This document shows, piece after piece, positions 2,183-59,668 of a stretch of 64,000 nt of DNA (position 1 is the stretch's first letter; every line of letters starts with the position of its first letter). Origin of the DNA: Salinimicrobium profundisediminis (GTDB lineage: Bacteria > Bacteroidota > Bacteroidia > Flavobacteriales > Flavobacteriaceae); the NCBI RefSeq assembly GCF_026241755.1, contig NZ_JAPJDA010000008.1, positions 1-64,000 of the forward strand. The letters run 5' to 3'. Made by a program: the position numbers and the translations under genes. The notes beneath the pieces are model-generated. The model did not search any database and was not told the DNA's origin. It saw nothing but the letters and a program-made list of their open reading frames with translations.

Positions 2183-2211
2183 CACCGCTAAAAGCCGGCA
2201 CAAAAAAAGCC

Positions 2212-2234
2212 TTTCAAAAATGCCATTTTTGACA
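2212..2234. repeat. Dispersed palindrome, copy 1
   Basis: The right arm is CATTTTTGACA; the left arm is TTTCAAAAATG, one base from the perfect complement. It lies between ruvX and dapD, 65 bases before the dapD start. It belongs to the family described at 42209. Confidence 0.7.
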
Positions 2235-2298
2235 GATATTTCTACCGGAATTTGATTCCGGATTGTGCAAATGATTTAAAACAGGAAAAATACTGAGC

Positions 2299-13963: not shown

Positions 13964-15265
13964 ATGAAAAAATTCCAGCTTTTAGTAATCGTTCTATTAA
14001 ATATTCTCCTGATTTCCTGTGAAAATAAGGAGTCTTCTAAAGAAGCATCGGTACAGTATACACAACGCATTCCCGCAGGAGAAAATTCATGGATTTCCCA
14101 CAATGAACAGCACGATCATCAAACTATAACAAAAGAAGGAATCCGAAACTGGAACGGCAGCGAACCTCTAAAGACCTACTTCAGGATTTCAGGGCAAGGC
14201 GAACTAAGTGTGGGCTTACACTTAAAGACCTCTTCTGAAAAAGTTATTTTAAAGGCTACTTTAAATGGTATAAGTAAGAAAATACCTCTCAAAAATGACA
14301 TTTTTGGTGATGTTTACCTGGGAGAGTATCCAATCAACCAGTCTGGATACCAGGAACTTATTTTGGAAATATTACAGCCAGATCCAGATGTTTCTGTGGA
14401 TATAAATGAAGTCTTATTAGCCGGAAATGCTGCAGAAGGCGATGTGAATTTTGTAATAGACAATTTCCATTTTGGGCGTCGGGGTCCCTCTGTACACCTC
14501 CGCTACCCTATTCCGGAGAAAAGTGAAAAAACACTATATTTTTATAACGAAATAGAAGTCCCCGAAGGCGAAGATGTAATTGGCTCCTATTATATGGCAA
14601 ACGGATTTTCTCACGGCTATTTTGGCATACAGGTAAATTCTGAGAGCGAACGCCGCATTCTTTTCTCGGTATGGAGCCCTTACGACACGCAAGATCCTGC
14701 TGAGATCCCCGAAGACCAGAAAATCGTATTACTTAAAAAAGGCGACGGAGTGAATACGGGCGAATTCGGCAACGAAGGTTCAGGCGGGCAAAGTTTTAAA
14801 CGCTATATGTGGAAAGCAGGAACAACCTACCGTTTCCTATTAAAAGGCGAACCTGCCGGTCCCGATCATACTGTCTATACCGCCTATTTTTACACACCTG
14901 AAAAAGACCAGTGGGAGCTTATCGCCAGTTTTAAAAGACCCAAGGCAAGTAATTACCTTGGTAATTTATATTCTTTCTTAGAAAATTTTGTGCCTGCCAC
15001 CGGTGATACTGCTCGAAAAGCTCATTATAAAAACCAGTGGATCTATGATAAAGACAAGGGCTGGATAGAACTCACCAAGGCTATCTTTACAGCCGATGCC
15101 ACGGCTAACCAAAAAGACCGGCTGGATTATGCAGGTGGTGAAATCGATGAAGGTTATTATTTGAAGAACTGTGGATTTTTCAACGATTTTACTCAAGTTG
15201 AAACAGAGTTTAGCCGCAAGGAAAATGGTTCTGCTCCTCAAATAAAATTTGAAAATCTTCCGTAG
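13964..15265 (+). CDS. DUF5077/DUF3472 lipoprotein of glycan-utilisation loci
   Basis: This 433-residue protein begins with a lipoprotein signal (MKKFQLLVIVLLNILLISC, Cys at 19). An N-terminal domain with NSWISHNEQHDHQTITKEG and ISGQGELSVGLHLKT resembles DUF5077. The C-terminal two thirds, with FHFGRRGPSVHLRYPIP, YYMANGFSHGYFGIQVNSE and FSVWSPYDTQDP, is DUF3472. Both domains recur in Bacteroidota glycan loci and look like beta-sandwich carbohydrate-associated modules; catalytic activity is not established as far as I know. It is 77 bases after the GH20 gene on the same strand, so a surface glycan-binding or accessory role in this PUL is likely. Confidence 0.8.
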   Translation: MKKFQLLVIVLLNILLISCENKESSKEASVQYTQRIPAGENSWISHNEQHDHQTITKEGIRNWNGSEPLKTYFRISGQGELSVGLHLKTSSEKVILKATLNGISKKIPLKNDIFGDVYLGEYPINQSGYQELILEILQPDPDVSVDINEVLLAGNAAEGDVNFVIDNFHFGRRGPSVHLRYPIPEKSEKTLYFYNEIEVPEGEDVIGSYYMANGFSHGYFGIQVNSESERRILFSVWSPYDTQDPAEIPEDQKIVLLKKGDGVNTGEFGNEGSGGQSFKRYMWKAGTTYRFLLKGEPAGPDHTVYTAYFYTPEKDQWELIASFKRPKASNYLGNLYSFLENFVPATGDTARKAHYKNQWIYDKDKGWIELTKAIFTADATANQKDRLDYAGGEIDEGYYLKNCGFFNDFTQVETEFSRKENGSAPQIKFENLP

Positions 15266-16781: not shown

Positions 16782-18596
16782 ATGAACATCATCAAGTCAG
16801 TTTTTTTGGTATTTGCATTTTTCTTCCTGGATGCTCCAATGTGGGCTCAAAATCCTGTAGATCAAAATTTTTCCGATAAAATAACAGGACAGGATGAATT
16901 TCCAGAGACTTACTCTGAAATATCGAACCCCATTCCTACTCCGGTGCATTTGTGGCAGAATAAGCGTCAAAATGTAATAGGCTGGGGAAACACTGATACT
17001 CGCTACAAAAAAGAGGAACCAGCCAGGGTCGGGGATATTTCCAATAAGGTTGAGATGACCGGCTGGAAGGGTGAGCGGGTATCTGCCCAATTCGTGGTTT
17101 CGGCAGTTAAATCTCCTTTAGAACTTTCCTTTGAAGTGAGCGATTTAGTGCATAACAGTAATAAAAAGTGGAGAATAGAACAGAGAACTATTTCTACAGG
17201 GTTTGTGCGCTATGTAATGACCGATGAACTCAATAAAGATAAAAAAGGAGCATGCGGTCACCGAAACGCTAAAGATTTTGATTCTACCCTTGTGGCCGAC
17301 CCTATAGATCATCTCACTAAAAGCCTTTTAATTCCTAAAAATTCGACCCGTCCCGGATGGGTGAAAATATGGATCCCTCAAAATGCTTTTCCCGGAAGCT
17401 ATACAGGAACCTTAAAAGTACTGGATGGCAAAAAAGTCATAAAAAAACTGAGAATTGAGATTAACGTCAAAGACCGAAAAATACCAACCCCTCAAAAATG
17501 GCGTTTTCACCTCGATCTTTGGCAAAACCCTTACGCTGCTGCACGTTACTATCAAACCGAACTGTGGAGTAAGGCTCATTTTGAAGCTATGGAAAAAGAT
17601 ATTCAGCATTACGCCAATGCCGGAGGAAAATCTATTACTGCCTCTATTATGAATAAACCCTGGAACGGACAAACCTATGACCCCTTTCAATCTATGGTGA
17701 CCTGGAAGCGGAAAATAAATGGGCAATGGGAATTTGGCTTTACCGCTTTTGATAAGTGGGTAGAGTTCATAATAAAAATGGGCGTAGATAAACAAATTAA
17801 CTGCTATTCCATGGTGCCATGGCGGTTATCCTTTGAATATTTTGATGAAGCCAGTAATTCTATGAAAATTGTAGAAACGGAACCCGGGGAAAAAGAATAT
17901 GAAGAAATGTGGGGCGCAATGCTCACCTCATTTGCCGCCCATCTCAAAGAAAAAGGCTGGTTTCACAAAACCTATATTTCTATGGACGAGCGCCCTATGG
18001 AAGTGATGCAGGAAACCATAAAGGTCATTAAAGCAGCCGATGCAAATTTCAAGATTTCATTTGCAGGTGGAAACCATCCAGAATTATATGAAGAAATTGA
18101 TGACTACTGTCTTTCTATGGAAGAGTCATTTCCCCAGGAAGTTAAGGAGGAGCGTAAAAACAATAGCAAGATTAGTACTTTTTATACCAGTTGTGCACAT
18201 GCTGCTCCCAACAGTTTTACTTTTAGTCCGCCGGCCGAGAGCGAATGGTATGGCTGGTATGCAGCTTCACAAGGTCTTGATGGATACCTGCGTTGGGCTT
18301 ATGCCAGCTGGGTTAAAGAACCTTTACTAGACAGCAGGTTTACTACCTGGGCTGCGGGAGACACCTATTTTGTTTATCCCGGTGGAAGGACTTCCATAAG
18401 ATTTGAAAAACTCCTTGCAGGCATTCAGGCGTATGAAAAAATTCTGATTTTGAAAGAAGAATTCAGAAATACCAATAATCAAAAGGCTCTAAAAGAATTG
18501 GAGGAAATCCTGCATCTTTTCAGTAATAACAACTTTGACCAAACCACTGCTTCCGAAGTAATAGAGAAAGCAAAGCTTGTAATCAATTCCTTTTAG
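16782..18596 (+). CDS. GH123-like beta-N-acetylgalactosaminidase (DUF4091)
   Basis: GH123 enzymes remove terminal beta-GalNAc, typically from glycosphingolipids, by substrate-assisted catalysis with an Asp-Glu pair. This 604-residue protein has a signal peptide (ending MWAQ), an N-terminal beta-sandwich (about 50-230), then the catalytic domain. The Asp-Glu pair is in YISMDERPMEV, about residues 401-402. SEWYGWYAASQGLDGYLRWA and DTYFVYPGGRTSIRFEKL are typical C-terminal DUF4091/GH123 motifs. It is 73 bases after the GH27 gene and ends the plus-strand PUL operon, converging on the GH2 gene. Function is by family; no ligand is proven. Confidence 0.88.
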   Translation: MNIIKSVFLVFAFFFLDAPMWAQNPVDQNFSDKITGQDEFPETYSEISNPIPTPVHLWQNKRQNVIGWGNTDTRYKKEEPARVGDISNKVEMTGWKGERVSAQFVVSAVKSPLELSFEVSDLVHNSNKKWRIEQRTISTGFVRYVMTDELNKDKKGACGHRNAKDFDSTLVADPIDHLTKSLLIPKNSTRPGWVKIWIPQNAFPGSYTGTLKVLDGKKVIKKLRIEINVKDRKIPTPQKWRFHLDLWQNPYAAARYYQTELWSKAHFEAMEKDIQHYANAGGKSITASIMNKPWNGQTYDPFQSMVTWKRKINGQWEFGFTAFDKWVEFIIKMGVDKQINCYSMVPWRLSFEYFDEASNSMKIVETEPGEKEYEEMWGAMLTSFAAHLKEKGWFHKTYISMDERPMEVMQETIKVIKAADANFKISFAGGNHPELYEEIDDYCLSMEESFPQEVKEERKNNSKISTFYTSCAHAAPNSFTFSPPAESEWYGWYAASQGLDGYLRWAYASWVKEPLLDSRFTTWAAGDTYFVYPGGRTSIRFEKLLAGIQAYEKILILKEEFRNTNNQKALKELEEILHLFSNNNFDQTTASEVIEKAKLVINSF

Positions 18597-18621
18597 AAGG
18601 CCTGATGTACCCAAAAAAGCT

Positions 18622-18644
18622 TGTCAAAAATGGCATTTTTCACC
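18622..18644. repeat. Dispersed palindrome, copy 2
   Basis: The left arm TGTCAAAAATG is perfect. The right arm CATTTTTCACC lacks the GA of the consensus. It lies 25 bases after the GH123 stop. It belongs to the family described at 42209. Confidence 0.65.
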
Positions 18645-18840
18645 TGAAGAATTCCTCTACATAACCTCCATAACCTTCAAATTTTGTGGAGGATTAAGCC
18701 TATATATTCTCCTGTTCAGCCAGTAAATAAAGGCTGATCTTGACCATGAGCGGAATTGTGTCCTATTCCTTGAGACACTTAGAAGATGCGGATTCAATAT
18801 TCATTAATAAGTAGCTCCTTTTTTTTTTTAAACATAAAGA

Positions 18841-22057: not shown

Positions 22058-22079
22058 TTAGCTTCGGAAAAAATATTCA

Positions 22080-22101
22080 GTTGAAATGACATTTTTGGAA
22101 C
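22080..22101. repeat. Degenerate dispersed palindrome
   Basis: TGAAATGACATTTTTGGAA keeps the central half (CATTTTTG) but has lost most of the left arm. It lies about 50 bases upstream of the GH2 start. Confidence 0.4.
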
Positions 22102-22206
22102 CTCCGGGTATTTTCCATTCCAGCTGAAGTTTTTGTTTCTTCCCACATCATCATACCACAAACCAACAACCAAAATAAATATAAAATTAGGATGCACTTC
22201 TTATAA

Positions 22207-23889: not shown

Positions 23890-24048
23890 TAAAAAAGTAT
23901 TAAAATATTCGATAATGAAAGTTAAAATTTCATTTTAGTAAGAAAATTAAAAGAATAAAAATTTCGTTATCTTATTTAAAACTTAAAAATCAATTTTATT
24001 CCCTGAAGGCTTTAAAGTTTTAATACATTCTATTAGTCCATTTTGTAA

Positions 24049-24072
24049 GGTGTCAAAAATGACATTTTAGGA
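24049..24072. repeat. Dispersed palindrome, copy 3
   Basis: GGTGTCAAAAATG is intact on the left; the right arm is shortened (CATTTTAGGAG). It lies about 20 bases after the sialate esterase stop, in the gap before GH109. Confidence 0.65.
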
Positions 24073-24093
24073 GTCTCTATTTACGCTTGCTGT

Positions 24094-25620
24094 TTAATCT
24101 ACTCCAATTTGAAAAGTGGAAGCCGGCAACTGCTCACTGTTCATAAGGTTTCCTGAAGAATAGGGAAGCCAGCCATAGTATATCATTTCAGGCTTTTGAG
24201 AGGTTTTTATAATGATTCTGGTCCCGTCGATTATACCCGGTACAGGATGTTTTCCGTTTAAAGAAAAACCTTGAACGGCTTCTTCCCCTGGCGTTTTTAA
24301 GCCTCCTGCGGTGTGTGCAAAATTGATGATCACTTTCCCCTGAGAATAGGACGCCCCTATAGGTAAAGGACCAGAAACTTCAATATTCTTGTTATAATCA
24401 TTGCGCAATGCCCACCGCGCCAACCTTTCACCTATCACTTTTTTGTTGCGTGGATGTACATCATTTTTGTTACCCACATCACTACTTACCGCCATGCCAG
24501 CATGTTTTATTTCCTGTAACAGAAGCCGTTGCAGATTGCGAAACAGTGGCCAATACTGCGACTTATAATTGGTAGTATCTATAGAAGAAAGCTGTACCCA
24601 ATAAAAAGGCAGGGAGTTTTGATGCCATTTTTCCCGATAACTTTTAATCAGTAATTTCTGTAATTGGGGGTACTCTAAAACTCGTGGTAACTCCTGAGCA
24701 TTACTTTCTCCCTGATACCATAAAACGCCTTTTATGGGCATATTTACAATAGGCTTGACTCCAGATTCATAGATAAATCCGGGTTTGTAAGCGTGATTGG
24801 CCCCTGTTTGGTTACTATACAAAGCAACTCCTCCAACATTTTGCTCTCCTCTTTCTCTAACCCAAACGGGTAATTCGTCATTTTCGAGCCAATTCCCAGA
24901 AATTTTATTTCGAAACTTTCGGTCTTTTAAAAGCGTTTCTTCGGAAATGAAGGCTTCGATTGGAGCACCACCAACAGCTAGATTTATGAGGCCTACCGGA
25001 ATGTTTTCATGTTGAAGTATTTCTTTTCCGAAGTAATAGCCTACAGCACTTAATTTCGCCACCTGCGGCAGTGCACTCTCCTCCCAGCTACCCCTAAAAA
25101 AACCGGCAGGATGCAGTTTTTCAAGATCTTCTTCAGAGTATTTTTCACCATAAATACCTTTACCAACATATTGTGGATTATAAAAGCGAAGTGCAGAACC
25201 AGCGAGCTGTTCCTTTTCGGTTTCATAATGCATCTCCTGCCCCAGCGACCATTCCATATTTGACTGACCCGCTAACAGCCACACATCTCCAATGAGAATA
25301 TTCGAATACTCCAAAGAATCGGTTTTGGTGTAAACCGATAAAACCCGGGGGACGGCATTGCCCGGCAAGGCTGAAAAAGAGACCTGCCAGGATGAATCGG
25401 CACTGGTTTCTACTTCTTTCACTTCTGAAGAAAATTTGACCTGTACAATTTCTCCAGGGAGGTATTCCCCCCATATAACAATGGGCATGTCTCGTTGCAA
25501 CACCATATTATCTGAAAAGATATATGGCATGGTAACCTGGGAATACCCAGTTAAATGGAGAGCCAAAAATGTCAATATTGTGTACCATTTTTGAAATAAA
25601 AATTTACTCTTGATCATCAT
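24094..25620 (-). CDS. Sialate O-acetylesterase (SGNH-type)
   Basis: Removes O-acetyl groups from sialic acids so that sialidase can act. The 508-residue protein has a signal peptide (LTFLALHLTGYSQ) and the family opening MPYIFSDNMVLQRDMPIVIWG, followed by a beta-sandwich. The SGNH block I is LLAGQSNMEWSLGQEM, with the nucleophile Ser near residue 120. GVLWYQGESNA near residue 300 and NDVHPRNKKVIGERLA near residue 390 supply the remaining motifs and the catalytic Asp-x-His. It lies downstream of GH33 and GH20 on the same strand but after a strong terminator. The pairing with a GH33 sialidase supports the substrate. Confidence 0.92.
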   Translation of the reverse strand: MMIKSKFLFQKWYTILTFLALHLTGYSQVTMPYIFSDNMVLQRDMPIVIWGEYLPGEIVQVKFSSEVKEVETSADSSWQVSFSALPGNAVPRVLSVYTKTDSLEYSNILIGDVWLLAGQSNMEWSLGQEMHYETEKEQLAGSALRFYNPQYVGKGIYGEKYSEEDLEKLHPAGFFRGSWEESALPQVAKLSAVGYYFGKEILQHENIPVGLINLAVGGAPIEAFISEETLLKDRKFRNKISGNWLENDELPVWVRERGEQNVGGVALYSNQTGANHAYKPGFIYESGVKPIVNMPIKGVLWYQGESNAQELPRVLEYPQLQKLLIKSYREKWHQNSLPFYWVQLSSIDTTNYKSQYWPLFRNLQRLLLQEIKHAGMAVSSDVGNKNDVHPRNKKVIGERLARWALRNDYNKNIEVSGPLPIGASYSQGKVIINFAHTAGGLKTPGEEAVQGFSLNGKHPVPGIIDGTRIIIKTSQKPEMIYYGWLPYSSGNLMNSEQLPASTFQIGVD

Positions 25621-31902: not shown

Positions 31903-34275
31903 TTACTCGACCTTAATTTTGCTAACAGGTATACCCTCTGCTCTAGCTTCAATAGTTACAGGAGCTTTAAATTCTTTTGTTCTTAAAAGGATCGTGGCAA
32001 TACCGGCTTCGGCTTTAACCGGATTTTCGCCAATGAGTTCGGCATTTTCTCCGGAAGTGATCTCAAAAGTCACCGGCAAACTGGCGTTGTGAACCAGGGT
32101 TCCGTTTTCATCCAGGAGTTTGGCATAGACAAAAACTACATCTGAAGTCTCCCGTGCAATCTCCTTTCCCGAAATATCTACCGAAAGTGCCATTTTTGAC
32201 ACCTCGCCCGGCGTGCGTACCAAATGTGTGGCGACTTCTTTCCCGTCAATGAATCCAACTGCTTTTAATTCCCCCGGAACAAATTCAGGAATCGAAAAAG
32301 TGTATGGCGGATACCACAGTTCATCTGAAAAGGACGTGCGTGTCGGTTTCTTTTTCTCAATAAGTTCGCCGTTCAGGTATAAAGCCACTTCTTCAGCATT
32401 GCTGTATACAGTGATATCTGGGGCGGAATTAGGCTGCCAGTAGTTGGCGATATACACCATAGGTTCTGAAAAATTCCCCTGATATGGCGGCTTCTGACTC
32501 TTATAAAAGTAGTAACTGAATTTTGGGATCCTGAAAATATCTGAAATCCCTGAAGCTTCAAGATCATTGGCATATCCGCGGTTATAATCGAACATGAGCC
32601 AGTTGGACATTCCAATGGTTTGTTCGCCCTTTAAGTTTGAATTTGTGGCTTCCTGAAAATTCAATGCCTGCTGTAAAAGCATTTTTTCACCGGCAGCTCT
32701 AAGCTGTCTGCTGGTACGCTCTTCTTCCTTAAGATCGCCAAAAGCCTTCTGGTTAAAACCGGCATTTTGCGCGTAATATTCCCAGTCGCCATATTCAGCA
32801 ATTAGAATCGGGCGATTGGGTGTGTTATAATCATTCCAGTAGTTAGGCGGCTGTGCATGTTGCCGCGCCGGAATAAACAGGTCATAAGCCGGATGATCTA
32901 TCCAGCCGGCACTAAAAGTATTGTCATAAGGCAGTTCGGCTTTAAGGATTTCATTGGCTTCCACCATAAATGCTTCAGTCATTCCCGATTCATTCAAAGA
33001 ATTTTCCCAAAAAATGACGCTGGGATGATTGCGATCGCGACAAACCATATCCTTTACATTCTGCAGCGCATTTTCAGCAAATGTTCCTTCCTCAAAATAC
33101 TGCCAGCCGGGAATGGCATTCATCACCAACAAGCCCAGCTCATCACAGGCTTTCAAAAAAGCCGTGGCATGTGGATAATGTGAAAGCCGCACGAAGTTGA
33201 AACCTGCCTGTTTAATTTTGTAGGCATCGCGATAATTGGCTTCATTAGAAATGGCGTAACCAACGTAAGGATATTCCTGGTGGCGGTTGGTGCCATTAAT
33301 GAACAATTCCTGGCCGTTGAGATAAAATGCGTTTCCGGTAAGTTCGATCTTCCTAATCCCGGTGGTGATGGCCTGCCGGTCTATAACTTCTTCGCCTTCC
33401 AGAACTTCAACTTCCAGTTCGTATAAATTCGGATGAGAAGGGCTCCAAAGCTTCGGATTTTCTACGGAAACTTCAGCGGTAAAATGTTCATCCCCGCCGG
33501 AAGCCAGTTTTTTATAAGGTGTCAAAAATGTCATTTTCACGCCTTCTTCCGAAGTAAAAATGGCACGCACTTTCAGTTCTTTTTCAGCTTCAGCATCATT
33601 GACAACATGCACTTTTACAAATCCGGAAGCTTTTTCCGAAGAAACGCTATCGAAATGCACTAAAATTCCGCCGCCGTTCACCTCTTTTGCATAAACGGGA
33701 TCTGAAATATGTACCAGATTGGTCTTTATGAGCTGCACATTGCGATAAATGCCGCCATAAAGGTTAAAATCGAGATCGGCCAGCGGTTTTCCGGGAGGAA
33801 TGGTGGCGTCATCAACATTAATGACCTCTACCTGTATGATGTTTTGGGAATTATTCTTCAAAAAAGGCGTTGCGTCGACAGTAAAAGGAAGATAACCGCC
33901 TTTGTGCGTCTTTACCAGAGAATCGTTGATGCTCACGCGCGCCTCCTGCATTATGCCTTCAAAATGGAAAAACCACTTCTCATTTTTGACCTTTTCAACA
34001 GGAAAATCTTTGCTGTAAAGCGATTTTCCCTGCCACTGGTCATTCACCACCAAAGGCTCGATCTTTACAGAATGAGGCAAAACCACTTCTTCTACAGGTC
34101 TTTCTGTTAAACCTGAAGGATCTTCGCGGTAAAATTTCCAGTTGTTGTTAAAGTTGATGACCTGTCGGGGAAGCTTCTGCTGTGCCCCTACTTTTTTGGA
34201 AGGAGGTAGGGACTCGCAACCAAAAAAAGTAAGGGATAAACAGACTAAAATGATAGCTTTTAACTGTTGTTTCAT
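31903..34275 (-). CDS. GH2 glycosidase with DUF4982 and C-terminal Ig-like domain, lipoprotein
   Basis: From the ATG at 34275 this is a 790-residue lipoprotein (MKQQLKAIILVCLSLTFFGC, Cys at 20). The upstream in-frame start at 34305 precedes the signal peptide. GH2 domains run in order: jelly roll, Ig-like, and barrel with the acid/base Glu in WENSLNESGM (about residue 428) and nucleophile Glu in ILIAEYGDWEYY (about 492). A DUF4982 domain (VALYLNGELIEKKK) and an invasin-like Ig domain (VDISGKEIARETSDVVFVYA) follow. Beta-galactosidase is the commonest activity of this architecture. The gene looks more GC-rich than neighbouring PUL genes, suggesting separate origin. It holds two words of the dispersed palindrome. 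Confidence 0.9.
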   Translation of the reverse strand: MKQQLKAIILVCLSLTFFGCESLPPSKKVGAQQKLPRQVINFNNNWKFYREDPSGLTERPVEEVVLPHSVKIEPLVVNDQWQGKSLYSKDFPVEKVKNEKWFFHFEGIMQEARVSINDSLVKTHKGGYLPFTVDATPFLKNNSQNIIQVEVINVDDATIPPGKPLADLDFNLYGGIYRNVQLIKTNLVHISDPVYAKEVNGGGILVHFDSVSSEKASGFVKVHVVNDAEAEKELKVRAIFTSEEGVKMTFLTPYKKLASGGDEHFTAEVSVENPKLWSPSHPNLYELEVEVLEGEEVIDRQAITTGIRKIELTGNAFYLNGQELFINGTNRHQEYPYVGYAISNEANYRDAYKIKQAGFNFVRLSHYPHATAFLKACDELGLLVMNAIPGWQYFEEGTFAENALQNVKDMVCRDRNHPSVIFWENSLNESGMTEAFMVEANEILKAELPYDNTFSAGWIDHPAYDLFIPARQHAQPPNYWNDYNTPNRPILIAEYGDWEYYAQNAGFNQKAFGDLKEEERTSRQLRAAGEKMLLQQALNFQEATNSNLKGEQTIGMSNWLMFDYNRGYANDLEASGISDIFRIPKFSYYFYKSQKPPYQGNFSEPMVYIANYWQPNSAPDITVYSNAEEVALYLNGELIEKKKPTRTSFSDELWYPPYTFSIPEFVPGELKAVGFIDGKEVATHLVRTPGEVSKMALSVDISGKEIARETSDVVFVYAKLLDENGTLVHNASLPVTFEITSGENAELIGENPVKAEAGIATILLRTKEFKAPVTIEARAEGIPVSKIKVE
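33518..33540. repeat. Dispersed palindrome word inside a coding region
   Basis: GGTGTCAAAAATGTCATTT is embedded in the GH2 gene, where the minus strand encodes VKMTFLTPYKK. A second word, GTGCCATTTTTGACACC, is at about 32187-32203 in the same gene. Confidence 0.5.
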
Positions 34276-34357
34276 ACAGCAGTTTATAAATGTAAATATT
34301 ACCATTATTTTTGAAATTAAAAAGACTTTTTAGAAAAAATTTCTTCTGAAGAATTTC

Positions 34358-36353: not shown

Positions 36354-37394
36354 ATGTCTGAAGATTTCAATACTCATCCTCACAAAAGGTATAATATTCT
36401 AACAGGAGAATGGATCCTGGTGTCTCCCCACCGCACCAAAAGGCCCTGGCAGGGGCGACTTGAAAAAGTGGCTGAAGAAAAAAGGCCTTCTTATGACGCC
36501 GACTGCTTTCTTTGCCCCGGAAATAAAAGGGCTAGCGGAGACACGAATCCAGAGTATGTTGAGCCATATACTTTTAGAAACGACTTTTCTGCATTATTGC
36601 CGGGAGGCCCACAGGAAGACTTTGAAGATGGATTGTTAAAGGCAAGTTCTGAAACAGGCCTTTGCCGGGTAGTTTGTTTTTCCCCCGATCATTCCCTCAC
36701 GCTGCCCGTAATGGAGACAGAAGATATCATTAAGGTTGTACAAAAATGGAAAGAAGAATATGCCGATTTGGGTAACATGGAAGATATTAATCACGTTATG
36801 ATCTTCGAGAACAAAGGCGACATGATGGGGTGTAGCAATCCGCACCCACACGGGCAAATATGGGCACAGCTTTCTGTTCCGGTAGAAGTACAAAAAAAGA
36901 CCGAACATCAGAAAAAATACTGGGAACGCAATAAGAGAAGCCTTTTAGGAGATTACCTTGAGCAGGAATTAAAATTAGAAGAAAGGATCGTCATTAAAAA
37001 TGAACATTTTGTTGCCCTTGTGCCCTACTGGGCAATTTGGCCTTACGAAACCATGATCATCCCGCGGCGGCAAATGCAACATATTGGCCAGCTTACTGCG
37101 GAAGAGGAAAAAGCTTATGCAGAGATCCTGAAACAGCTCACCATAAAATACGACAACCTGTTTCAAACCTCTTTCCCCTATTCTTCGGGAATCCATCAAC
37201 AGCCCACAAACAACAGCGATTATCCCGAATGGCATTTCCACATGTCTTTCTATCCCCCGCTGTTAAGGTCTAAAACAGTGAAGAAATTCATGGTGGGATA
37301 TGAGCTTTTTGCCAGCCCGCAGAGGGACATCACTGCTGAACAGGCTGCAGAAACTCTTAGGGAACTTCCAGACCAACATTACACGCTGGAATAA
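36354..37394 (+). CDS. galT: Galactose-1-phosphate uridylyltransferase
   Basis: Exchanges UMP between UDP-glucose and galactose-1-phosphate. The 346-residue length and motifs fit GalT: RYNILTGEWILVSPHRTKRP at residues 9-28 and CFLCPGNKRASGD at about 53 (zinc-site Cys pair). The active-site His are in GCSNPHPHGQIW (about 160-171), and HQQPTNNSDYPEWHFHMSF near residue 280 is typical. It follows galK by 5 bases. A dispersed palindrome starts at the base after its stop codon, followed by a bidirectional terminator. Confidence 0.97.
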   Translation: MSEDFNTHPHKRYNILTGEWILVSPHRTKRPWQGRLEKVAEEKRPSYDADCFLCPGNKRASGDTNPEYVEPYTFRNDFSALLPGGPQEDFEDGLLKASSETGLCRVVCFSPDHSLTLPVMETEDIIKVVQKWKEEYADLGNMEDINHVMIFENKGDMMGCSNPHPHGQIWAQLSVPVEVQKKTEHQKKYWERNKRSLLGDYLEQELKLEERIVIKNEHFVALVPYWAIWPYETMIIPRRQMQHIGQLTAEEEKAYAEILKQLTIKYDNLFQTSFPYSSGIHQQPTNNSDYPEWHFHMSFYPPLLRSKTVKKFMVGYELFASPQRDITAEQAAETLRELPDQHYTLE

Positions 37395-37421
37395 GGTGTC
37401 AAAAATGCCATTTTTGAAACC
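37395..37421. repeat. Dispersed palindrome, copy 4
   Basis: GGTGTCAAAAATG then C then CATTTTTGAAACC. The inverted repeat is nearly perfect. It abuts the galT stop codon, and a separate GACC/GGTC terminator follows 43 bases later. Confidence 0.75.
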
Positions 37422-37463
37422 CTCTTCAGCTTTATTCATATAAATTTCTGAAGCCGTCCAAAT

Positions 37464-42122: not shown

Positions 42123-42208
42123 GGGCACTATAATTTGATCCTGAAAATTGAATGTTGAAAATAGTAAATAAACTGCAATCCTGCAGCGGCACAGTCAAAG
42201 AAAAAGAG

Positions 42209-42233
42209 ATGTCAAAAATGGCATTTTTGACAC
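42209..42233. repeat. Dispersed palindrome, best copy
   Basis: TGTCAAAAATG, one central G, CATTTTTGACA: an 11-base perfect inverted repeat. It is flanked by ACC on the right, as in most copies. It lies between the CocE-like gene stop (42243) and the DUF885 start. It is AT-rich with no GC clamp or separate T-tract, so it is not a typical terminator. Confidence 0.85.
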
Positions 42234-42242
42234 CTCAGTATT

Positions 42243-44111
42243 CTATTCCAGCACCGAGAAAATAATCTGGGAATCGTGGAAGACTTTGTGTTCCTGCTTT
42301 TGAAAATCCTCTTCTTCGGCTTCAAAAATATTGTCTACGTAGGTCTGCGGATTAAGGTCGATTAACGGAAACCAGCTGCTTTGCACCTGAATTTGCAATT
42401 TATGACCTTTTTTGAAGGTGTGGTGCACATCCTGAAGTTGCAGGTTTACTTGCGTCTTCTTGTTAGGTTCAAAAGGTTCAGGATTGGAGAAACTGTTTCT
42501 AAACCTGCCTCTTATAACTTCGCTGCGAACCATCATGTGGTAATTGCTCATAGAGAGATAATCCTGTGTTTCTTCGAAATCTTCGGCATCGGGCGGAAAA
42601 ACATCAACAACTTTCACAATCCAATCAGCTGCTGTTCCTGTAGTCGCCACCTGCAATTTTGCCAGCACTTCTCCGGCCAAAGTGAAGTCTTCCTCTAAAA
42701 CTTCAGTTTCATAAACCAGCACATCGGGCCTGCGTGCTGCAAAACGCTGATCATCGGTCATGTACTTCCGCGGAGTAAAGACCATTTTGATATCTTCAGA
42801 ATAAGGCACCGGTTTATTGGGGTCGCTAATGAATGTTTCGGCACCAGAGGCAACAGCAGGAACAGCTACAGGCCCTGCAATTAGCTGCTGATCATCACCC
42901 AGGTAAAAGGCCTTCTTTTTTGCCATTTTTGGAGGCCAGGCTTCATAGGTTTTCCATTCCATCAAGCCAGTATCGAACATGTAAGCTTCAGGAAGCGCAA
43001 GATGTTCATCAGCCTCTCCTTTTAAAAAGTGGTTAAAAAAGAGGGTCTCCACTTCCTTTTGATAATTTTCAGAAATATTATCGCCAAAATACACATTACC
43101 AATAGCCTGCCGATCTTTTTTACGAGCCCAGTCACCGTGGCTCCAGGGCCCCATTACAAGCATATTATAAGTATCGCCGTTCTTCTCTATGGTCTCATAA
43201 ATATTGAACGGCCCGTAAAGATCTTCGGCATCAAATAAGCCGCCAACAACCATTACTGCAGGTTTAATATCCTTTAAATGTTGTACAATTCCGCGTTTTT
43301 GCCAAAACTCGTCGTAATTAGGGTGCTCCTTAAGCTGTTGCCAGAAAACATTGTCTTCTCCGTAATATTTATCGAGATTTTTAAGAGGCCCCGCATCGAG
43401 GAAAAACTGGTATTGATCTTTGGTATTGAGCTCGGGAAAAGAATACCAGGCAGTATCGCTGGGGGTGCTTTTTTCATATCCAAAAACAGCCGTAGCCCGC
43501 CAGTAGCTCAACATATAGGCACCATTGTGGTGAAAATCATCAAAAAAGAAATCCCCGATAGAAGCCTGTGGCGAAACCGCTTTTATCGCCGGATGATTGG
43601 CCAAAAGGGAATAAGTGGTGTAAAAACCGGGATAGGAAATACCCCAGAGACCCACGCGTCCGTTGTTGTTCTTTACATTCTTCACCAGCCATTCTACAGT
43701 GTCATAAGTATCGCTGGCTTCATCAAACTGTTTTCCTTTTTTCTTCGGAATAAAAGCCCGCATATTGTCGTACACGCCTTCGCTCATCCACCTGCCGCGC
43801 ACATCCTGGTATACGAAAATATTCCCCTGTTTCATCAAATATTCGTTGGGGCCTAACTGTGACCGGAACTGCCCTTTTCCATACGGCCTTGAGCTATATG
43901 GTGTGCGGGTCATAAGAATTGGATACTCCTTTGAAGTATCTTTTGGGGAAAAGATGGTGGTATGAAGCTTTGTACCATCTCTCATAGGAATGACCACCTC
44001 CTTTTTGGTGTAGTGGTCTTTGACTTCATATTGGGTTGCGGTTTGTGCTAATCCATGGCTGCTAACCAGCACAAACAGCACCGGCAGGAAATAAATTTTG
44101 AAAAATTTCAT
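42243..44111 (-). CDS. CocE/NonD family hydrolase (X-Pro dipeptidyl-peptidase S15-like), exported
   Basis: The 622-residue protein has a signal peptide (MKFFKIYFLPVLFVLVSSHGLAQ). The alpha/beta-hydrolase domain contains VVIPMRDGTKLHTTIFSP and the nucleophile elbow VGLWGISYPGFYTTY, with Ser near residue 162. VVGGLFDAEDLYGPF carries the catalytic Asp and MGPWSHGDW the catalytic His. The C-terminal jelly-roll domain is PepX_C-like. Members cleave esters, acyl-amides or Xaa-Pro peptides; sequence alone does not decide. It precedes the DUF885 gene on the same strand, so both may serve periplasmic peptide turnover. Confidence 0.92.
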   Translation of the reverse strand: MKFFKIYFLPVLFVLVSSHGLAQTATQYEVKDHYTKKEVVIPMRDGTKLHTTIFSPKDTSKEYPILMTRTPYSSRPYGKGQFRSQLGPNEYLMKQGNIFVYQDVRGRWMSEGVYDNMRAFIPKKKGKQFDEASDTYDTVEWLVKNVKNNNGRVGLWGISYPGFYTTYSLLANHPAIKAVSPQASIGDFFFDDFHHNGAYMLSYWRATAVFGYEKSTPSDTAWYSFPELNTKDQYQFFLDAGPLKNLDKYYGEDNVFWQQLKEHPNYDEFWQKRGIVQHLKDIKPAVMVVGGLFDAEDLYGPFNIYETIEKNGDTYNMLVMGPWSHGDWARKKDRQAIGNVYFGDNISENYQKEVETLFFNHFLKGEADEHLALPEAYMFDTGLMEWKTYEAWPPKMAKKKAFYLGDDQQLIAGPVAVPAVASGAETFISDPNKPVPYSEDIKMVFTPRKYMTDDQRFAARRPDVLVYETEVLEEDFTLAGEVLAKLQVATTGTAADWIVKVVDVFPPDAEDFEETQDYLSMSNYHMMVRSEVIRGRFRNSFSNPEPFEPNKKTQVNLQLQDVHHTFKKGHKLQIQVQSSWFPLIDLNPQTYVDNIFEAEEEDFQKQEHKVFHDSQIIFSVLE

Positions 44112-47552: not shown

Positions 47553-48863
47553 TTAATCGTGCTCCTCCAGCACCTTTTTTAATGCTGCCGCTTTTACCAG
47601 GCATTCTTCATATTCATTTTCGGGGATAGAACGCGACGTGATGGCGCTACCTACCGAAAAAGACACGTATTTAGAAGCCTGATTATATAAAATACTGCGG
47701 ATAACCACGTTAAAATCAAAATCGCCTGCAGGATCAAAATATCCTACCGCCCCGCTATACAGGCCACGCCTCGTTTCTTCCAGCTCTTCAATGATCTCCA
47801 TGGCCGAGATCTTGGGAGCACCCGTCATACTCCCCATAGGAAAAGTAGTGCGCAGCACCTCAACTGCAGGTATACCTTCCTCCAGCCTTGCTTTTACAGT
47901 AGATATCATTTGGTGCACCTGCCTAAAGCTGTACACCCTGCAAAGTTCGGTTACCTCAACACTGCCTTTTTTTGCTGTTTTTGAAAGGTCATTGCGAACC
48001 AGATCTACAATCATGATATTTTCTGACCTTTCTTTAGGATCTCTTTCAAGCTGCAGGGCAAGTTCTTTATCTTTTTCGGGATCAAAAAGGGCTCTGGGCG
48101 CAGTTCCTTTTATGGGCTGGGAAATTAATTGGTCACCTTTCTTCTGAAGGTATCTTTCGGGGGAAGCTGATAGCAAATAATGATCGTTATTTCTGAAAAA
48201 TGTGGCAAAAGGAGGTTTGGAAATATCATTTAAGGCTGAAAATTTCAGAAATGGATCAAAAATGGCACTTTCAGCATAGAATTCCTGACAAAAATTGGCT
48301 TCATAGATATCTCCCCGCTGAATATGCCCCAACATTTCCTGAACTTTCAGGAAATAAGCCTCTTTTGAGATTCGGGGACTTAGCCTGATCTCATTTTTCA
48401 CCACCGGAAAAATTCCCTCCTGAAAATGCCCTTTTTGAAGGATCTGTTCCAGGTCTTCTTCCAGCTCATCATCTACTAACCCGAGATAATTCAACTCGAG
48501 TTCATTTGCTTTCAGAGTAATGATCTTCTTCGGCTGAAAAAAGAACAATTCAGGAAAAAAAAGCCAGTCGTGGTTGTTGCTCTTCAGGTGTTCCACGTCA
48601 TTTTTGAGATCATAAGTGAGATATCCAAAAATCCAGTCGGCAGTGGTTTCCTGGTATTCCTTAAGCTTGTCAAAAGCTTCCGAAGCATCGGTTTGAATGG
48701 CTGTAAAGGCATCTACGGCGAGTAAAGCCTCAAAATTCGAGTAGCCGTCTTTATGTTCATTGCTGTCTAACCACACCACTTCATTGTACTGGCGGGCCCA
48801 GTGCAACAGCGCCTTTTTAATGGGAAAATCTTTGTCAAATTTGACCTTTTTGGATATCCTCAC
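47553..48863 (-). CDS. pabB: Aminodeoxychorismate synthase component I (anthranilate synthase component I family)
   Basis: Aminates chorismate for folate synthesis with a glutaminase partner. The 436-residue protein has the chorismate-binding core: QRGDIYEANFCQEF, LLSASPERYLQK, SQPIKGTAPR, ENIMIVDLVRNDL, RTTFPMGSMTGAPKISAMEII and RGLYSGAVGYFDPAGDFDFN. The start is a GTG at 48863 that overlaps the stop of the FMN-reductase gene. The motifs fit PabB better than TrpE, as no trp genes adjoin, but the two are closely related. Confidence 0.88.
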   Translation of the reverse strand: MRISKKVKFDKDFPIKKALLHWARQYNEVVWLDSNEHKDGYSNFEALLAVDAFTAIQTDASEAFDKLKEYQETTADWIFGYLTYDLKNDVEHLKSNNHDWLFFPELFFFQPKKIITLKANELELNYLGLVDDELEEDLEQILQKGHFQEGIFPVVKNEIRLSPRISKEAYFLKVQEMLGHIQRGDIYEANFCQEFYAESAIFDPFLKFSALNDISKPPFATFFRNNDHYLLSASPERYLQKKGDQLISQPIKGTAPRALFDPEKDKELALQLERDPKERSENIMIVDLVRNDLSKTAKKGSVEVTELCRVYSFRQVHQMISTVKARLEEGIPAVEVLRTTFPMGSMTGAPKISAMEIIEELEETRRGLYSGAVGYFDPAGDFDFNVVIRSILYNQASKYVSFSVGSAITSRSIPENEYEECLVKAAALKKVLEEHD

Positions 48864-55866: not shown

Positions 55867-55908
55867 TTGGTAAATTCTGATGCATAAAAGTAAGCCGAAT
55901 TATTTACC

Positions 55909-55931
55909 TGTCAAAAATGGCATTTTTGAAG
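55909..55931. repeat. Dispersed palindrome, copy 6
   Basis: TGTCAAAAATG, G, CATTTTTGAAG. The left arm is perfect and the right arm differs only in its last bases. It lies in the divergent gap between the TlpA-type and M3-peptidase genes. Confidence 0.75.
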
Positions 55932-55992
55932 CCCCTTGTTTTTTAAGATTATTAGTATCTTGAAGACCGAACAAAAAAAATGATAATTGAAA

Positions 55993-58234: not shown

Positions 58235-59668
58235 TTATAGCAATTCGCTAAAATGATCTTTGAGTGCTTTTTGAGCCGCGTGAAAGCCGCACATACCATG
58301 AACGCCACCACCAGGAGGCGTAGATGAAGAACAAATGTACACCCGTGGATCTGGCGTAGCATAAGGAGATATTTTGGCCACAGGCCTCGTGAATAGCTGT
58401 GTTATATCCTGTCGTCCTCCATTGATATCCCCTCCCACGAGATTAGGATCAAACTGTTCGAGTGCCACTGTGTTCATCGCCGATCTTTCCAGGATAGTAT
58501 CTTTAAAACCCGGAGCAGCACGTTCAATTTGATTTTCTATGATCTCTGTATAATCGGTGGTATCGCCGTTGGGGACGTGAATATACGCCCAGGCCGTGTG
58601 CTTACCTTCGGGCGCCCGCGTGGAATCAAAAGGGGTATGTTGGGCAACAAGCACATAAGGAGTATCGGTCATTTTTTTGTCGTGAATGCCTTTTTCAGAC
58701 TCTTCAATTTCCTTCTGAGAAAATCCTAGATGTATAGTTGCGGCTTTTCGGCATTTTTCACTGGTAAAAGGAATAGGTTCACTAAGCGCCCAGTCCATTT
58801 TGAAAACACCGGCACCATATTTATAAGCCTCCAGCCGCTTGCGGTAAAGAGAATTAAAATTAAGCCCCTTGATCTTCAGCAGCTGTTTTGGGGTAAGATC
58901 AAAGAGATAAGAATACGCATTGGGCAGGTCGCGAATATCGTTTACCAACTGGTCACAGTAGATCTCACCGCCCAGAGATTTATAGTGCTGTACTAGGGCA
59001 TCAAAGAAATTCCCAGCTCCTCCTTTTGGAAAAGGCCAGTTATATTTATGCGCACTGGTGGTGAGCACCAGTCCAAAAGAAGCCGAGATCAAAGTGTTTA
59101 GAGGAAGTGTGGAATGAGCGGCCGAGCCGTAAAAAAACATCTTCGTTTTCTCATTTTTAAAGTATTTATCCGCAATCATTTTTGCTGAAGGCAAAGCTTT
59201 GAGTCCGAACTTCATAAATTGCAAAGGATGATCGGGAATGCCCAGTGGCCCCAACAGGTCTTCATTGAGCTTATCCCAATTCTCCAACAAAGGATTGATA
59301 AGGTTGAGATAGGCATCCTGATCTTCTCCCAACTGTGCGGCCGTGGCTTGAATATCTTTGTAGCAGGCATAAGCTGTACCATCATCAAAAGGATGAGCAT
59401 AGGCAACTTCGGGAAAGACCCACTCCAGGCCGTACTGCTGCAGGGGCAGATTCCGGAAGAAAGGAGAGGCCAGCCCCAGGGGCATAATAGCCGAACCTAC
59501 ATCGTGCTTAAAGCCCGGGAGGGTTAACTCCTTTGTTTTAGTGGCACCACCGGGTACCGCTGCCTGCTCAAAAATGGCAGTTTTTAATCCTTTTTGCTGT
59601 AATCTTATGGCTGCAGCTATGCCATTGCTTCCGCAACCAATAATTATGGCATCATATTTTTTAGACAT
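58235..59668 (-). CDS. FAD-dependent oxidoreductase, CrtI/phytoene-desaturase-like
   Basis: The 477-residue protein opens with YDAIIIGCGSNGIAAAIRL and FEQAAVPGGATKTKEL, the FAD-binding fold and second glycine motif of the CrtI/RetC family. The C-terminal region with YICSSSTPPGGGVHGMCGFHAA is typical of the same family. Members desaturate or isomerise isoprenoids, but this subgroup lies apart from the carotenoid genes and its substrate is unknown. No other crt gene lies nearby. Its ATG overlaps the stop of the upstream SDR gene by one base (TAATG), so the pair is translationally coupled and may act in one pathway. Confidence 0.88.
   Translation of the reverse strand: MSKKYDAIIIGCGSNGIAAAIRLQQKGLKTAIFEQAAVPGGATKTKELTLPGFKHDVGSAIMPLGLASPFFRNLPLQQYGLEWVFPEVAYAHPFDDGTAYACYKDIQATAAQLGEDQDAYLNLINPLLENWDKLNEDLLGPLGIPDHPLQFMKFGLKALPSAKMIADKYFKNEKTKMFFYGSAAHSTLPLNTLISASFGLVLTTSAHKYNWPFPKGGAGNFFDALVQHYKSLGGEIYCDQLVNDIRDLPNAYSYLFDLTPKQLLKIKGLNFNSLYRKRLEAYKYGAGVFKMDWALSEPIPFTSEKCRKAATIHLGFSQKEIEESEKGIHDKKMTDTPYVLVAQHTPFDSTRAPEGKHTAWAYIHVPNGDTTDYTEIIENQIERAAPGFKDTILERSAMNTVALEQFDPNLVGGDINGGRQDITQLFTRPVAKISPYATPDPRVYICSSSTPPGGGVHGMCGFHAAQKALKDHFSELL

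Follow-up and report, generated by a model that had tools for sequence, protein, structure and literature searches.

The stretch of Salinimicrobium profundisediminis DNA analysed here (64,000 nucleotides, GC 0.41, hereafter the window) carries around position 42221 a palindrome that recurs in several other intergenic gaps. The question raised by this locus is what kind of element is repeated in this way, how far it extends beyond the window and what could read it.

A dyad site repeated across the genus

The initial annotation had described inverted pairs of a word between genes and single words inside genes, and had judged them to be well above chance in 64 kb. The excess is borne out: the window contains 15 matches to TGTCAAAAATG at ≤1 mismatch, where 100 dinucleotide shuffles average 3.25 ± 1.65 (maximum 9); for TCAAAAATG the numbers are 22 and 2.35 ± 1.49 (maximum 6). 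The six palindromes that had been named all lie in gaps and the decayed copy reported near 22080 was recovered (Table 1), all assignments to genes or gaps here and below being based on uncurated gene calls from a codon-bias script. The copy centred at 2223 sits between RuvX and a tetrahydrodipicolinate succinyltransferase-like gene, the one at 37408 lies 13 bp past the stop of gene 36354-37394 (galT-like, judged by eye), and the stretch of one genic copy (14279..14317) also matches dispersed places in congeners. As for the single words in genes, some do lack a second arm (41675, 63886, 48607, 33989, 20007), but several are degenerate full palindromes (14298, 17501, 32190, 33531, 48265, 59577).

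Table 1 Copies of the dyad site in the window
Feature	Position	Strand	Centre	Core mismatches	Context
Dyad site	2204..2242	.	2223	0	divergent gap
Genic dyad site	14279..14317	.	14298	0	within gene 13964-15265
Degenerate genic dyad	17482..17520	.	17501	3	within gene 16839-18596
Dyad site	18614..18652	.	18633	1	convergent gap
Decayed copy	22070..22108	.	22089	3	intergenic
Dyad site	24043..24081	.	24062	1	tandem gap, upstream gene's stop 32 bp away
Degenerate dyad	25553..25591	.	25572	2	tandem gap; additional to the named copies
Genic dyad site	32171..32209	.	32190	2	within gene 31903-34305
Genic dyad site	33512..33550	.	33531	2	within gene 31903-34305
Dyad site	37389..37427	.	37408	0	convergent gap
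Dyad site	42202..42240	.	42221	0	22 bp past stop of gene 42243-44111
Degenerate genic dyad	48246..48284	.	48265	3	within gene 47553-48863
Dyad site	55901..55939	.	55920	0	divergent gap
Genic dyad site	59558..59596	.	59577	2	within gene 58235-59668

The repeated unit is a dyad of about 39 bp, AAAA-n-AGG-nnT-CAAAAATG-N-CATTTTTG-Ann-CCT-n-TTTT, with a core of 17 bp. The symmetrised profile, built from 464 kb of the S. profundisediminis genome (G000; the window and 20 stretches), reads as an A tract at -19 to -16, A-G-G at -14 to -12, T at -11 and -9, CAAAAATG, a free centre and the mirror half, with A/T tracts at both ends. The same base preferences appear when left and right columns are analysed separately, genic copies included, and the centre base differs among copies and often among species too. 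Positions outside the core hold 8.8 bits in intergenic and 5.3 bits in genic copies. The total information amounts to 32.5 and 26.8 bits respectively, figures inflated because the sites had been selected at ≤2 mismatches; marking 700 places needs, by an arithmetic estimate, roughly 12.5-13.5 bits, which is below these totals.

The genome-wide count stands far above expectation and copies are plentiful outside the window: G000 has 9 exact 23-mers (control 0), 91 exact TCAAAAATGNCATTTTTGA (control 0) and 416 cores at ≤1 mismatch (control 1). The word CAAAAATGNCATTTTTG was also counted at ≤2 mismatches in 12 Salinimicrobium genomes (G000-G011), with the reversed word as control (in brackets). G000 has 698 sites (9) and its nearest sister, G009, 683 (8). 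They are followed by G007 with 410 (11), G005 with 382 (5), G004 with 361 (11), G010 with 357 (9), the 75% complete G008 with 325 (3), G011 with 323 (9) and G006 with 316 (6), and then by G002 with 112 (4), G003 with 43 (5) and the 74% complete G001 with 2 (2). The over-representation is specific to the lineage: in a draw of 299 genomes of the family, at ≤1 mismatch, G000, G009 and G002 have 416, 365 and 42 sites and the 296 genomes from outside the genus 0-5 each. Within genes, synonymous shuffles yield 4.8 sites per 420 kb against 28 observed in G000 (≤2 mismatches) and 2.9 per 345 kb against 27 observed in G009, a scale on which the count of G003 appears to lie near background. A de novo search for palindromes with at least four copies found none in 200-kb samples of G002 and G003; the Salegentibacter rows of that search stem from orthologous loci, where one place is counted repeatedly. 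The palindrome is thus a genus-specific, two-fold symmetric DNA site present in several hundred copies per genome (about 690 in two species).

Of the 42 sites that G002 has at ≤1 mismatch, 13 fall on C15, a contig of 15 kb, and 6 on C8, of 10 kb. Both contigs appear to carry integron-like cassette arrays (L192 on G002:C15, 15124 bp; L193 on G002:C8), and similar arrays take up parts of other Salinimicrobium loci (L212, L215, L216, L218, L220 and L221). The G002 arrays consist of small, mostly same-strand ORFs at GC 0.33 with attC-like repeats between them; the ORFs include a HigB toxin and HTH proteins, and 7 of the 10 scanned have no Pfam match. For G002 and G005, array repeats of 130-146 bp were recorded. 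Several species have, near arrays or at most about 2.3 kb from a contig end, a recombinase of about 400-440 aa that scores just at the cut-off of NF040815 (XerA/integron integrase) and below that of TIGR02249; in G009 it has no apparent array beside it, and TIGR02249 is above cut-off in none of the 12 genomes. Several types of array repeat carry the dyad site. In G002 three different types do so, which would fit acquisition of these dyads from site-rich relatives better than an origin of the motif in the G002 cassette array, the alternative considered.

Other repeats were also observed. A second over-represented word family, CTTCCGAAG / TCTTCGGAA / TCCGAAGAA, occurs in the stretches of G000 and G009 (CTTCCGAAG 72 times against 8.2 expected in 464 kb) and perhaps corresponds to TTCG-loop terminator stems. 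A gap of about 1.1 kb in G009 contains three tandem units of about 357 bp, with one dyad each (L120:6640-7380), and two more short dispersed repeats, ACTACTAACTACTA-like and CTAGAAACTAGAGTCTAG-like (L103:13488-13521, L103:14721-14755), have many genus-wide matches at roughly 80-97% identity.

Placement and conservation of the sites

Placement was studied at ≤2 mismatches in 464 kb of G000 and 400 kb of G009; sites less than 40 bp from a stretch end were dropped, hits less than 12 bp apart were merged, and stretches picked around known sites were kept out of the density figures. The G000 sample comprises 67 sites (39 intergenic and 28 genic, for a coding fraction of 0.91) and the G009 sample 78 (50 intergenic and 28 genic, coding fraction 0.86), so that the density per kb is about 13 and 11 times higher in gaps than in genes. 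Mapping relative to gene ends, which the initial annotation had proposed, shows more than this excess in gaps. Summed over both species, gap length predicts 21.4 sites in divergent, 22.9 in convergent and 44.7 in tandem gaps, where 11, 28 and 50 respectively are observed, and the tandem-gap sites lean weakly towards the upstream stop (15 of 22 and 18 of 28; random placement does as well in 6.6% and 9.3% of cases). Along the complete G009 chromosome, 20 even samples of 20 kb contain 1-8 sites each with no evident trend by coordinate, and the spacing of sites shows no regularity beyond that of random placement (cv 1.04 and 1.25 against 0.97). A stretch of 44 kb in C13 of G000 (about 145-189 kb, L101-L103) is a site desert with a counterpart of about 50 kb in G009 (about 2.45-2.50 Mb). 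Its genes in G000 resemble, by their first residues and by eye, a polysaccharide-degradation island, and sites may be absent from later-acquired DNA, as in this 44-50 kb desert.

The mismatch spectrum was compared with that of permuted palindromes, a control milder than the synonymous shuffle. Gaps of G000 contain 19, 9, 11, 14, 20 and 103 cores at 0-5 mismatches, against 0, 0.02, 0.03, 0.9, 8.3 and 48.7 for the permuted palindromes; the series are 12, 14, 24, 12, 31 and 70 against 0, 0, 0.08, 1.0, 8.0 and 50.2 in G009 gaps, and 6, 6, 16, 48, 116 and 455 against 0, 0.03, 0.33, 4.7, 38 and 233 in the genes of G000. Perfect copies stand out in the gaps of G000 but are not the commonest class in those of G009, and the sign of drive seen in the former genome is therefore not general.

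To what extent individual sites are maintained can be seen in the species comparison. Among 50 sites of G000 (from the window and C13), 40 could be aligned to G009, at an overall identity of 0.87. The core is identical at 0.94 of intergenic and 0.98 of genic positions and the outer flanks at 0.80 and 0.87, whereas the arms (9-19) reach 0.92 in genes and 0.78 in gaps, the latter no better than flanks. Third codon positions of genic cores are identical to G009 in 108 of 112 cases, when 81.1 are expected from the same codons elsewhere (z 5.9). The corresponding figures are 107 of 129 against 87.7 (z 3.7) in the genic arms and 345 of 476 against 324.0 (z 2.1) at 20-60 bp from the genic sites. Compared with G007 (79% identity), core third positions are kept in 53 of 64 cases against 37.5 (z 4.2) and those of the arms in 47 of 73 against 39.2 (z 1.9); with G004 the values are 23 of 30 against 17.1 (z 2.3) and 19 of 33 against 16.0; with G010 the core gives 4 of 6 against 3.0, numbers that are too small. 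A kb-scale zone of raised identity around the sites, which an uptake function predicts, was looked for and not found.

At single loci, the 42221 site is kept as a palindrome or near-palindrome in 6 of the 8 congener loci shown, both arms being altered together in two close relatives, and the S. catena and S. marinum loci have no palindrome at this position. The 55920 site is recognisable in all five congener loci that span it, and some congeners retain the 37408 site, others having lost it or carrying a replacement. Alignable sites change by in-place substitution and not by insertion (10 of the 50 could not be aligned to G009). The sites are thus held at fixed places by selection or drive, synonymous positions in genes included.

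The conserved unit is the whole dyad. Where an exact genic half-word has a partner arm with 0-3 mismatches, third positions are the same in 75 of 76 cases in the exact arm and in 71 of 76 in the other, and both arms of these near-full dyads together give 146 of 152 against 110.6 expected. With 4 mismatches in the partner, the exact arm is conserved (39 of 43 against 31.3), and with 5-8 mismatches there is no significant conservation (100 of 122 against 92.1). Relative to synonymous shuffles, isolated genic half-words are over-frequent by 2.26 times in G000, 2.69 times in G009, 2.62 times in the site-poor G002, 1.42 times in G003 and 1.25 times in the Salegentibacter loci. The half-word was nevertheless rejected as the main unit, since it shows no significant conservation when its partner arm is poor. 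The picture of inverted pairs between genes and single words within them thus gives way to one in which the conserved genic units are whole, degenerate dyads.

Candidate readers and functions of the dyad

A palindrome can be read as a hairpin or as double-stranded DNA. In genic copies, the arms pair no better at ±6 to ±19 than shuffled partners do (largest z 1.7), with a complementarity excess of z 2.4 at ±3, among 21 offsets; intergenic copies have a weak pairing excess at ±8 to ±13 (z 1.2-2.4). As the genic arms vary independently, the data agree better with double-stranded DNA being read by a protein of two-fold symmetry than with a hairpin, and an RNA or cruciform hairpin as the general function was rejected for genic copies, given the lack of arm covariation at ±6 to ±19. 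Judging from the sequence profile, the reader is very probably a dimeric or dimer-of-dimers protein, whose predicted contacts would lie at about ±3-8 and ±12-14 and in the A/T tracts at ±16-19, around a bendable TG-N-CA centre. Outside the profile, genic copies of the G000 and G009 stretches show at offset ±21 a complementarity of 0.50 against 0.26 expected (z 4.1).

As to what such a protein would do, we tentatively favor, by analogy, a self-DNA tag for natural transformation, a functional counterpart of the DUS/USS. Cells would preferentially import or process fragments bearing the site, and recombination of these fragments would propagate sites and restore damaged ones at places where they are harmless, such as gene ends, the gaps between convergent genes and synonymous parts of coding sequence; for a minority of the copies at gene ends, a terminator stem would be a second role. 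Competence-driven molecular drive would in this way have lifted a kinkable 39-bp palindrome from background to about 690 copies within the genus. A more doubtful proposal is that the site could be the first uptake-type self-DNA signal in Bacteroidota and the first such signal of any kind to be a true dyad, recognised by a symmetric protein and not by a type IV minor pilin. The uptake tag would account for a copy number of DUS/USS order with a wide spread along the G009 chromosome, for the lineage-bound growth of the counts over the 12 congeners (2, 43, 112, 316-410 and 683-698), for an information content above need, for the perfect copies common in G000 gaps and for the core third-position conservation. 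In-place substitution where sites are alignable, the deficit in divergent gaps and the lack of a coherent regulon by eye are also in its favor. Yet both halves of the dyad are needed, while USS and DUS are non-palindromic single words, dimeric chromosomal proteins usually have dyads as their sites, and the predicted kb-scale rise in identity was not found.

The competence genes bear on the uptake tag as well. The ComEC domain is intact in 10 of the 12 congeners (195-211 bits, open frames of 648-690 aa), all of which have at least 112 sites. In G003 (99% complete), all that is left of comEC is a decayed copy interrupted by in-frame stops and missing large internal parts (L252:950-1901), and in G001 (74% complete) the sole ComEC match, of 19 bits, is below the cut-off; tblastn confirmed the remnant in G003 and found no ComEC in the G001 piece. 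This pattern resembles the loss of an uptake tag after the loss of competence, but it is confounded by phylogeny. The proteins most similar to the DsbD-like protein of the window (84-89% identity) come from six Salinimicrobium records, and a tree built on six proteins from the dsbD region places S. marinum at the first branch (support 1.0), with low support (0.37) for the order of S. catena and MAG LH_M86. By GC match, G002 would be S. catena and G003 S. marinum. With identities taken from GC, the lineage with the broken comEC probably branches before the rise of the motif, and since S. marinum is first in the tree and its GC matches G003, the motif may simply have arisen later. A T2SSE/PilB-type ATPase is above cut-off in G000 and not in G009 or G003. 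A pilin receptor of known type is thus unsupported in G009, whose site count is near the highest. The G000 gene (G000:C21:22380-23510) gives a strong T2SSE/PilB-like match of 414 bits and could be accessory or a contamination, which is estimated at 2.46%. PMC7965970 reports that the Flavobacteriales member Riemerella columbina transforms preferentially with its own DNA, which is in favor of the uptake tag, and that Flavobacterium johnsoniae, which speaks against it, was not competent under the conditions used.

About as likely as the uptake tag is a chromosome-organising or nucleoid site, in which a dimeric protein would bind the several hundred dyads and bend, bridge or mark the nucleoid in the manner of Noc, SlmA or MatP. 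A dyad whose halves are conserved together with no arm covariation in genes agrees with such a site, as do a constraint largely restricted to about ±20 bp, graded degenerate copies in genes and in G009 gaps too, and the absence of a visible regulon. Against it stand the hundreds of copies, when Noc and SlmA have tens that are sparse near the terminus, the lack of a visible trend over the 20 G009 samples, an approximately twofold difference in copy number between groups within the genus, and the fact that no candidate protein was found among the genes neighbouring the sites.

An operator of a global transcription factor is unlikely. The dyad has a suitable shape, the 2223 and 55920 copies lie in divergent gaps, and the stretches surveyed contain 103 site-gene pairs with a site ≤220 bp upstream of a start; by eye, a LysR-type (L114:14210) and a Crp/Fnr-like (L116:4335) regulator have one site beside each. 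Yet divergent gaps hold only about half the sites predicted from their length, 28 of 67 sites in G000 and 28 of 78 in G009 are inside genes, and the flanking genes look unrelated by eye.

Intrinsic, possibly bidirectional, terminator stems are a very improbable explanation of the sites in general. In some gaps the outer arms do pair well and are accompanied by a T run, arms change together in orthologues (42221; L107:4780) and the weak intergenic pairing excess points the same way, but the stem and T-run rule picks out no more than 13 of the 89 intergenic sites and a single one of the 56 in genes, and stems explain neither the conserved genic copies nor their lack of covariation. The 13 intergenic cases indicate that a minority of gene-end copies also act as terminators.

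Least tenable is a REP/MITE-like mobile palindrome, an alternative raised by the initial annotation, which would fit a short, many-copied palindrome that favors convergent and tandem over divergent gaps in a genus where 9 of 12 congeners have Y1 transposase matches (8 above cut-off), but which was rejected because alignable sites change by substitution and not by insertion, and which is also opposed by the 361 sites of G004 with no Y1 match, by the A/T tracts on both sides, by the conserved synonymous positions and by a profile with no neighbouring tetranucleotide tag, where symmetrisation would show a tag at half strength.

Comparison with known systems and significance

DUS are non-palindromic, and the Salinimicrobium site is unlike DUS and USS in being dyad-symmetric, in requiring both halves and in having a Bacteroidota host. 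In the available part of PMC12616744, USS are likewise non-palindromic and consist of a core with spaced A/T-rich tracts, the latter a point of likeness to the Salinimicrobium site. As far as the accessible descriptions of DUS and USS go, other shared traits are the hundreds of copies, the lineage specificity, the high density in gaps combined with presence in genes and the location of some copies in terminator-like stems. For five Pasteurellaceae genomes, the available part of PMC2346458 gives 47-70% of USS in genes against 84-89% coding sequence. The Salinimicrobium dyad has 42% (G000) and 36% (G009) in genes against 91% and 86% coding. The initial comparison with uptake sequences therefore stands as regards abundance far above chance, lineage specificity and distribution over gaps and genes, and fails as regards the single-word unit and the non-palindromic form.

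MatP sites are palindromic and serve a sequence-specific chromosomal protein. So do the sites of Noc and SlmA in the available part of PMC4726725, where Noc sites are 14-bp palindromes with about 70 copies, SlmA sites number 24-52, and both are under-represented near the terminus; the Salinimicrobium dyad differs in its hundreds of copies and its lack of a trend over 20 samples. HIP1 of cyanobacteria is also a highly iterated, lineage-bound palindrome (PMC4390886), but it is an 8-mer linked to orphan methyltransferases, while the Salinimicrobium site spans 17-39 bp with a free centre. REP/GTAG elements, according to the accessible part of PMC3733652, share a length of 20-40 bp, a high copy number and a mostly intergenic location with some copies within ORFs. 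The Salinimicrobium site has neither a GTAG/CGTC tag nor, where alignable, an insertion signature, it keeps synonymous positions, and 56 of the 145 sampled sites are in genes, at odds with extragenic confinement of the REP type.

The site is accordingly filed as a lineage-specific, high-copy recognition word, set apart from membership in DUS/USS; relative to the portions of the literature available, it differs from USS in symmetry and host, from Noc and SlmA sites in number and from REP in its mode of change. Open full-text searches on the motif, on Salinimicrobium palindromes and on uptake sequences in Flavobacteria gave, among the matches listed, no description of this motif. Hundreds of copies per genome together with synonymous conservation imply a chromosome-wide recognition system. 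If it marks the nucleoid, it would be the densest sequence-specific chromosomal mark of the Noc, SlmA and MatP kind, none denser being known to us; if it is an uptake tag, the Bacteroidota would gain a testable signal of an unexpected, symmetric form.
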